DNA from: Endozoicomonas sp. G2_2
Lineage (GTDB): Bacteria; Pseudomonadota; Gammaproteobacteria; Nevskiales; Salinisphaeraceae
Length of the DNA stretch: 64,000 bases
Direction: 5' to 3'
NCBI RefSeq assembly: GCF_017744135.1
Contig: NZ_JAGHQU010000003.1
Location: forward strand, 124,001-188,000
Position numbers and translations under genes: made by a program. Shown here piece after piece: positions 31,850 to 32,354 of the stretch (the stretch's first letter is position 1; the number at the start of each line of letters is the position of its first letter). The notes beneath the pieces were generated by a model. It saw nothing but the letters and a program-made list of their open reading frames with translations, was not told the origin of the DNA and did no database searches.

Positions 31850-31878
31850 TTGACAATCCAGGTCCGATTCCCAACAAT
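31850..31878 (+). promoter_or_regulatory. Promoter for tRNA-Tyr/Gly/Thr-tuf
   Basis: TTGACA (31850-31855), 17 bp, then AACAAT (31873-31878), with a GC-rich discriminator, 15 bp before the tRNA-Tyr 5' end. It shows that the distal tRNA genes do not need read-through from tRNA-Thr(TGT) and explains how the cluster tolerates the fds insertion. Confidence 0.7.
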
Positions 31879-31893: not shown

Positions 31894-31978
31894 GGAGGGA
31901 TACCCAAGCGGTCAAAGGGAACAGACTGTAAATCTGTCGGCTCAGCCTTCGGAGGTTCGAATCCTCCTCCCTCCACCA
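31894..31978 (+). tRNA. tRNA-Tyr(GTA)
   Basis: An 85-nt class II tRNA with a long variable arm. Acceptor GGAGGGA / TCCCTCC, discriminator A, encoded CCA, anticodon GTA in the loop CTGTAAA. T arm is GGAGG-TTCGAAT-CCTCC. Close to E. coli tyrU in layout; it is the first gene behind the TTGACA promoter at 31850. Confidence 0.96.
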
Positions 31979-32037
31979 CTTGAATAGCGGAAAATCTGAA
32001 AACGACTGGCGATATGCGGTTGCGCATGAGCCGGACC

Positions 32038-32148
32038 GAGGAGGGTTCGAACCGTAAAGTTCGGCGAGGCGGCGCAGCCGCCGAGAGCAGTATCGCGCAG
32101 CGATGCTGGCCCGAAGGGCGAGCCGCGAAGCGGCGAGTAATCCTCCTC
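32038..32148 (+). repeat. Four-hairpin palindromic element in tRNA-Tyr/tRNA-Gly spacer
   Basis: Four consecutive small hairpins each with a three-base loop: GGCGGC-GCA-GCCGCC (32068-32082), AT CGC-GCA-GCGAT (32092-32104), GCCC-GAA-GGGC (32109-32119) and GCCGC-GAA-GCGGC (32122-32134). The whole is closed by GAGGAGG (32038-32044) and CCTCCTC (32142-32148). All four loops are GNA type. The 5' end contains the palindrome GGTTCGAACC, as in a tRNA T arm. The transcript would fold as a multi-branched RNA. It could be a REP-like mobile palindrome or a tRNA-derived remnant; the identity is not known. Confidence 0.7.
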
Positions 32149-32150
32149 CC
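32139..32150 (+). repeat. 12-bp copy of tRNA-Tyr 3' end
   Basis: AATCCTCCTCCC occurs inside the tRNA-Tyr T stem and acceptor (31960-31971) and again here, 179 bp further on, at the closing side of the hairpin element. It resembles in arrangement the E. coli tyrT (rtT) repeat, whose units also start with the last bases of a tRNA-Tyr gene. Confidence 0.55.
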
Positions 32151-32280
32151 GGGTATAGCCGTTTCATTGGCTACGAAGGATGTCCGGATTGGGTCAAGCC
32201 CGGTTTCAGGTTTGAATCGCCGCCCAGGCAGCGCCCTTGCAGGCGGCGCCGGGATTGGCGAGAGTCGGAAGGTTGGCGGC

Positions 32281-32354
<74 letters not shown>

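Follow-up and report, generated by a model that had tools for sequence, protein, structure and literature searches.

The four-hairpin element that follows tRNA-Tyr in the 64,000-nucleotide stretch of Endozoicomonas sp. G2_2 analysed here (the window) is almost certainly a lone unit of the RtT family, in part decayed and homologous to RtT of E. coli, judging by sequence and covariance models. The Rfam model of RtT, RF00391, scores 37.3 bits on it (E 1.5e-5 in 701 bases); as this lies below the gathering cut-off of 45, we claim the element as an RtT homologue and not as a member by Rfam's own criterion. The first-pass annotation had described four hairpins with the loops GCA, GCA, GAA and GAA inside a 7-bp closing stem, GAGGAGG/CCTCCTC, and both sequence and fold bear this out. 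It had also held that the structure matched no element it could name, which the covariance-model matches do not support; a small hairpin and the tRNA-derived parts of the element were absent from its description (Table 1).

Table 1 Features of the window element and of T-loop-inserted tRNA-Gln-like copies. Positions are those of the window unless a locus is named.
Feature	Position	Strand	Basis or remark
Four-hairpin element	32038..32148		Between tRNA-Tyr and tRNA-Gly; sequence read and fold
tRNA-Tyr (GTA), host gene of the unit	31894..31978	+	ARAGORN; Rfam RF00005
RF00391 (RtT) match	32024..32157	+	Full model; below cut-off
Closing stem, 5' arm GAGGAGG	32038..32044	+	Complementary to tRNA-Tyr 3' strand; sequence, fold
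Closing stem, 3' arm CCTCCTC	32142..32148	+	Sequence, fold
Small hairpin CGAAC-CGTAAA-GTTCG	32048..32063	+	Sequence, predicted fold
Four-hairpin cluster per model R1	32057..32143	+	92.6 bits; window copy is in the R1 training set
Hairpin H1, loop GCA (32074-32076)	32068..32082	+	Sequence, fold
Hairpin H2, loop GCA (32097-32099)	32088..32108	+	Sequence, fold
Hairpin H3, GCCC-GAA-GGGC, loop GAA (32113-32115)	32109..32119	+	Sequence, fold
Hairpin H4, loop GAA (32127-32129)	32122..32134	+	Sequence, fold
12-base copy AATCCTCCTCCC of tRNA-Tyr 3' part	32139..32150	+	tRNA positions 58-69
tRNA-Gly	32281-32354		Downstream of element
T-loop-inserted tRNA-Gln-like copy	L106 1234-1383	-	Region before gene duplicated too
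T-loop-inserted tRNA-Gln-like copies	L114 1369-1529, 1655-1815	-	
T-loop-inserted tRNA-Gln-like copies	L178 1452-1602 and two further copies	+	

In the predicted fold, the closing stem extends to 10 bp, as far as 32047/32139. Its 3' arm belongs to the 12-base copy of tRNA-Tyr, so the stem uses tRNA-derived sequence; the 7 further bases of the copy up to CCA are gone, leaving 12 of 19. The closing stem lies 60 nt and the modelled cluster 79 nt downstream of the end of tRNA-Tyr. Positions 32020-32170 (151 nt) fold with a minimum free energy of -70.4 kcal/mol, against a mean of -60.2 for dinucleotide shuffles (z -2.74), and 1 of 200 shuffles equals or beats this fold. The 5' arm GAGGAGG recurs in eight of the ten unit-bearing genomes of the genus and reads CAGG(A/G)GG in the other two.

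The element is followed by tRNA-Gly, tRNA-Thr and a reading frame that by eye looks like EF-Tu, and we infer that tRNA-Tyr, the element, tRNA-Gly and tRNA-Thr form one operon. A promoter scan gave a single promoter-like site, at 31850 upstream of tRNA-Tyr, and found none belonging to the element itself. No terminator-like site was found by pattern scan between tRNA-Tyr and the element, which makes its transcription within the tRNA precursor plausible, as proposed in the first-pass annotation.

R1, a covariance model built from nine copies of this genome only, recovers the four units of the E. coli K-12 tyrV region at 43.8-47.0 bits (E 2e-12 to 1.5e-11) in a search of 1.7 kb with filters off, where the next match reaches 11.6 bits. 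Several H1 and H2 pairs of the E. coli units are non-standard under R1, and the modelled cluster is 80 nt long there versus 87 nt in the window. In this E. coli region, RefSeq annotates a 171-nt ncRNA, RttR, that ends exactly at the CCA of the copied tRNA end. RtT/RttR (tyrT-tyrV) and the window element share their place behind tRNA-Tyr, a cluster of four hairpins whose loops are mostly of GNA type, a closing stem built with the copied tRNA 3' end and alignment to RF00391 over its full length; the window differs in having a single unit, in its sub-threshold score and in the lost CCA end of the copy.

The RtT family is wider than the Rfam cut-off reveals. RF00391 passes its cut-off at the tRNA-Tyr units of two sister genomes, G008 (65.9 and 59.3 bits) and G013 (58.7 and 55.8 bits), and matches one Tyr, one Arg and one Gln locus of the genome under study, all below cut-off. 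Unlike RtT/RttR of E. coli, the relatives in the genus also occur behind Arg and Gln tRNAs, where RF00391 mostly misses them: 3 of 40 non-Tyr loci pass. Across 369 genomes of the class, RF00391 matched 66 at E ≤ 0.001 and 23 above its cut-off; among 14 control genomes, E. coli alone matched. R1 matched at least 92 of the 369 at E ≤ 1e-6, with at most 12 candidates scored per genome. Thirty-seven of 398 genomes in a sample of the phylum were positive at E ≤ 1e-7, namely 16 of the same class (the genome under study included) and 21 from one family of another class.

Within the genome under study, BLAST of the element gave 13 further partial matches at E ≤ 1, the four weakest of those away from known arrays having E 0.02-0.8. 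R1 gave at least 21 matches at E ≤ 1, from 150 of 2461 candidates scored. Of the 17 at E ≤ 1e-5, 12 follow an intact tRNA and 2 a decayed tRNA-Arg; the other 3 lie in an array that opens a contig, and the first two of these terminate in a tRNA-Arg-ACG 3' copy. Two of the 4 weaker matches extend tRNA-linked arrays, and two (C22:23089 and C30:173985) are without a nearby tRNA. Reading the neighbourhoods places hairpin clusters 3' of tRNA-Tyr, Arg-CCT, Arg-CCG, Arg-ACG, Arg-TCT, Gln-TTG and Gln-CTG, in a genome with 45 Rfam tRNA matches, one of them a decayed copy. The first-pass annotation named many dispersed copies as a test; further copies exist, but they are not dispersed and lie mostly at tRNA genes. 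REP and BIME elements are likewise palindromic, intergenic and tandem, whereas the present family is tied to tRNA 3' ends with cognate sequence, all 17 matches at E ≤ 1e-5 being tied to a tRNA, a decayed tRNA or a copy-bearing array. For the candidates scored, this link led us to reject a REP-like dispersed repeat.

Elsewhere in the same genome, a degenerate hairpin cluster recognized by eye behind tRNA-Val-GAC (L025, G000:C4:10874-13947) ends in a tRNA-Val 3' copy; it is missing from the R1 matches, a search that scored only part of the candidates. On the same contig (L054, G000:C4:57000-71500), two stretches about 9 kb apart each carry tRNA-Arg-CCT and a repeat array, one of the tRNAs being decayed. 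Their reading frames, one GNAT-like plus a second, are similar by eye, and the two are probably a segmental duplication. Judged by eye, the DNA behind tRNA-Met (L018, G000:C28:10887-13960) contains the start of a reading frame that seems to resemble a tyrosine recombinase.

Pairing is maintained in the family while the sequence changes. Alignment A4 holds 133 matches at E ≤ 1e-11 from 96 chosen sources, with 121 distinct copies, the E. coli units falling below the limit; it is fitted to the model and hence biased in the model's favour. In it, 93.9% of cells are paired (75.2% in shuffles), and the compensatory changes that the first-pass annotation named as a test are present, 24 of 30 pairs having changed on both sides. 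The covariation score is 0.463, against 0.144 for shuffled and at most 0.043 for slid versions, and all five measures lie above 500 of 500 shuffles and above the slid versions. An alternative alignment with MAFFT of 11 Tyr units from ten genomes has 8 of 42 pairs doubly changed and 66 of 452 cells unpaired; its few double changes result from misregistration of H2, and A4 is the better covariation test. The inner C-G pairs of H3 and its GAA-type loop are the least variable parts in the family.

Across the aligned copies, the conserved fold is shown to belong to the sense strand. G-T cells in A4 outnumber A-C cells by 267 to 21, and G-A cells outnumber C-T cells by 167 to 10; 225 of the 267 G-T cells fall at three positions, without which the ratio is 42 to 17. 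These excesses indicate that folding takes place on the strand read together with the tRNA. In the parts of PMC7657543 and PMC8250186 available to us, RtT is described with covariation and a tandem GA motif, and this motif agrees with the G-A cells of A4. Out of 412 predicted loops, 281 are triloops, of which 192 have the form C(GNA)G. GNA triloops are especially stable in DNA, where C(GNA)G forms unusually stable mini-hairpins, a property that would also fit a role as single-stranded DNA.

We examined the surroundings of 133 matches in pieces fetched from the genome under study and its relatives (143 minus 6 duplicates and 4 reverse-strand shadows, covering part of the relatives' matches only), and of 73 matches in other pieces. 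A tRNA lies upstream on the same strand within the piece for 107 of the 133 and 53 of the 73. Of the 46 without one, by our reading 15 sit at contig ends, 4 follow a tRNA that is decayed or truncated, 6 are T-loop-inserted copies and 21 lack any such explanation. The 95 first units stand next to a tRNA (Arg, Gln, Ser, Tyr, Glu or Thr; 16 tRNA kinds), 31-93 nt behind it, with a median of 78.

Each unit tends to carry the end of its own tRNA. After the hairpins, these 95 units match the 3' end of that tRNA over a mean of 15.7 bases (median 19), compared with 5.5 for tRNAs of other amino acids. The cognate copy is complete from A58 to A76 (19 bases) in 53 of them, reaches 12 bases or more in 75 and falls under 9 in 9; among the 75, it starts at position 58 in 58 units and ends at 76 in 63. 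For Tyr, the full copy is found in four of the five first units among the 95 and, by eye, in 6 of 10 first units of genus genomes. Fifteen of 19 phylum loci also have an upstream tRNA (Ser, Gln, Arg, Tyr, Glu and one Asp), with 18-19 matching bases in 10 of the 15. Comparison of the units shows a typical layout: a spacer, a T-arm-like start GGTTCGA (GTTCG in the window), the domain of four hairpins and, copied from the tRNA just upstream, up to the last 19 bases of its 3' end. In effect, a unit is its tRNA's 3' part, with the T loop housing a hairpin domain. A simple script finds a terminator-like hairpin between tRNA and cluster in 48 of the 95 first units, where the cluster may thus seldom be transcribed.

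Two further loci stand apart. Three tandem R1 matches at L090 (1234-1774) have neither a tRNA in the piece nor a tRNA 3' copy, and are either false positives or a different sort of hairpin-rich repeat. Two R1 matches at L094 (1501-1757, minus strand) end in a tRNA-Ser-like 3' copy, with no tRNA found in the fetched piece.

The spacer may contain a segment of the tRNA in inverted orientation. Its longest inverted match averages 11.4 bases to the own tRNA and 7.8 to the others, and the own tRNA exceeds the others' mean in 87 of 95 units. Twelve or more inverted bases occur in 47 of the 95, mainly with Arg hosts (34 of 37, at positions 44-63). For units behind the other tRNAs, the counts are Gln 5/31, Glu 1/3, Ser 5/17, Thr 2/2 and Tyr 0/5. 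The cognate excess in the longest match is small for Gln (8.7 vs 6.4), and none is seen in the five Tyr units (8.2 vs 7.9). For Tyr units, the window included, the inverted part is therefore not supported by this measure, and the evidence there is the 7-bp closing arm.

We folded each tRNA together with its unit; these are equilibrium predictions, and co-transcriptional folding would let the cloverleaf form first. In the best predicted fold of two Arg loci, and of E. coli tyrV with its unit, the 5' acceptor strand is paired to the copy in the unit, and the T arm of the tRNA itself is bound by the spacer. Over the 95 units, the T stem of a tRNA folded alone has a predicted probability of 0.71; its own unit lowers this to 0.05, and 285 swapped units, taken from tRNAs of other amino acids, leave it at 0.57. 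With the own unit, the 5' acceptor strand is predicted to pair downstream with a probability of 0.85, versus 0.16 with swapped ones. Shuffling the spacer restores the predicted T stem to 0.45; with the copy shuffled it is 0.12, and with the cluster shuffled 0.02. Pairing of the 5' acceptor strand in the copy region exceeds a probability of 0.5 in 80 of the 95 units, and in 51 of the 53 with a full copy. Most tRNA/unit pairs are thus predicted to exchange the tRNA 3' end for the copy in the unit. In the window, the predicted T stem is at 0.00 and the 5' acceptor strand pairs in the copy region at 0.36, a weak exchange that follows from the cut of the copy to 12 bases.

A sensitive search matched the K-12 unit in 4695 of 5426 E. 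coli genomes. Since 731 genomes have no match, the unit is not essential there; tRNA-Tyr itself was found in 5375. In three genomes (loci L106, L114 and L178, Table 1), a four-hairpin cluster lies inside the T loop of tRNA-Gln(UUG)-like genes upstream of a normal tRNA-Gln. When the cluster is removed in silico, 6 of 181 testable matches (209 collected minus 28 not testable) give a tRNA call: one at L106, two at L114 and three at L178. The tRNA bodies are identical to the neighbouring normal tRNA-Gln at L106 and L178 and diverged at L114, and we therefore regard them as products of duplication and attribute no function to them. With 6 of 181 matches and such bodies, a working class of stand-alone "expanded T-loop tRNA" genes was rejected.

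By analogy, the unit is probably co-transcribed with its tRNA and released as a trailer. Processing of the tRNA 3' end would excise it, giving a stable, structured RNA that has the copied CCA at its end, as annotated for RttR. A trailer RNA released by tRNA processing would be shared with 3'ETS-leuZ, a tRNA external transcribed spacer RNA that acts as a sponge. The fuller reading, which we favour on balance, is of an RtT-family unit that forms such a trailer and takes the shape of a T arm with a hairpin domain in its loop. In the unprocessed precursor, the 5' acceptor strand may pair with the copy and the spacer may hold the tRNA's own T arm. Because the copy and the inverted segment match its own tRNA, the unit can compete with the tRNA's own 3' end; it would be a cis-acting competitor in folding or processing, as well as a mimic of the tRNA end. 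The decoy or scaffold RNA of the first-pass annotation is likewise a candidate role. That the unit regulates by exchanging the 3' end of its tRNA is a tentative proposal that we consider rather unlikely. With the CCA part of its copy missing and little predicted exchange, the window element would retain at most T-arm displacement or a released hairpin RNA.

About as doubtful is that the units are passive products of DNA events without an RNA function. Shared T-arm motifs (GGTTCGA, ATCC) would permit slippage, unequal recombination and template switching at near-palindromes, and such events would duplicate the tRNA 3' end, correct inverted segments so that they fit the tRNA, and expand arrays. 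This accommodates the tandem arrays, spaced by 178 bp in E. coli and mostly by 169-186 bp in the genus, with other spacings too, and their varying copy number, from 1 to 14 places in each matching E. coli genome; a 175-bp rtT VNTR is listed in the part of PMC2658671 we consulted. Units within an array are on average 0.91 identical, compared with 0.74 at the same tRNA between genomes, decayed copies are common, and the T-loop-inserted tRNA-Gln copies resemble duplication products. However, the stems change sequence yet stay paired, where neutral decay would not keep four hairpins, and the wobble and G-A cells favour one strand. Sheer accumulation of palindromes by chance in GC-rich DNA, by which the first-pass annotation would have stood refuted, can draw on a single-sequence z-score that is weak alone; it is practically eliminated by covariation, the further copies in at least 92 of the 369 class genomes and the tRNA association.

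A small mobile element that inserts at the tRNA T loop or just after the CCA and duplicates a 19-bp target (A58-A76) is improbable; a host or phage enzyme might move such an element in the form of folded single-stranded DNA. It would explain the flush ends of the duplicate, the 16 tRNA kinds that serve as hosts and the abundance of C(GNA)G triloops, and also the occupied and empty sites within one genus, where tRNA-Tyr was found in 12 of 14 genomes and has a unit behind it in ten of the 12 and none in two. The nearest relatives tell against it, and the mobile palindromic repeat of the first-pass annotation becomes a weaker rival: among 79 genus units, the nearest relative lies at the same tRNA in another genome for 45, at a tRNA of the same amino acid for 13, at another tRNA of the same genome for 11 and elsewhere for 10 (units of one genome and tRNA were not intercompared; four units are unlabelled, giving two of the 45 pairs). 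As a caveat, mean identities are close: 0.74 among units that share a tRNA across genomes, and 0.70 among units at different tRNAs of one genome. The Arg unit had no match in phage and plasmid records; the E. coli unit had one among phage records, in a Salmonella record, and 18 of its 14,990 places are on E. coli plasmids, which also carry tRNA-Tyr (27 places). Integrative elements of the tyrosine recombinase type share the direct repeat of the tRNA 3' end from T loop to CCA, but a unit of about 180 bp is too short for a recombinase gene and has its own hairpin domain. The usual tRNA integrase sites keep the T-loop overlap, whereas no attachment core is conserved at both junctions of the examined matches (GARTAAT vs TTCGAAT), which weakens an ordinary integrase site. 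Less probable still is an element of transcription or stability only, a hairpin cluster that slows decay of the tRNA precursor or terminates it. The fold is very stable, and rtT has been reported to resemble candidate attenuators belonging to BIMEs in Enterobacteria (PMC2965389), but the cognate 19-base copy is left unexplained and a pattern scan found no terminator-like site after the window cluster up to 32484.

RtT was described in 1991 by Bosl and Kersten in the E. coli tyrT operon, as cited in the portions of PMC4986893 and PMC2965389 we consulted. Within that same portion of PMC4986893, Northern blots of A. pleuropneumoniae show RtT bands, and RtT is placed near Asn and Lys tRNAs; an excerpt of PMC8092127 has RtT raised at low temperature in Thioalkalivibrio. 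A search of literature titles and abstracts, with most subscription journals outside its coverage, returned no report of cognate copies at genes for Arg, Gln, Ser or Thr tRNAs.

The structured, conserved unit is real, the wider family and the cognate copy are its interesting part, and the mechanism is what we infer from them. RtT is not peculiar to tRNA-Tyr: like modules, most of them fitted to their own tRNA, follow genes for Arg, Gln, Ser, Thr and Glu tRNAs (16 tRNA kinds when Tyr is counted) and one Asp gene. A bolder and still more tentative view would make RtT one case of a general kind of module that is partnered with its cognate tRNA, occurs in Gammaproteobacteria as well as in one family of another class, and serves as a tRNA-specific maturation switch. 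With the four-hairpin domain in a duplicated T loop, the 19-base cognate copy and a T-arm-displacing sequence, each tRNA precursor would toggle between two forms, the normal tRNA and one whose T loop is expanded. In the literature as far as we consulted it, the role of RtT in the E. coli tyrT operon has gone unexplained since its 1991 description. The data also show where the Rfam model of RtT could be widened, and the natural replicates, together with the sharp A58-A76 copy rule, make its function testable.
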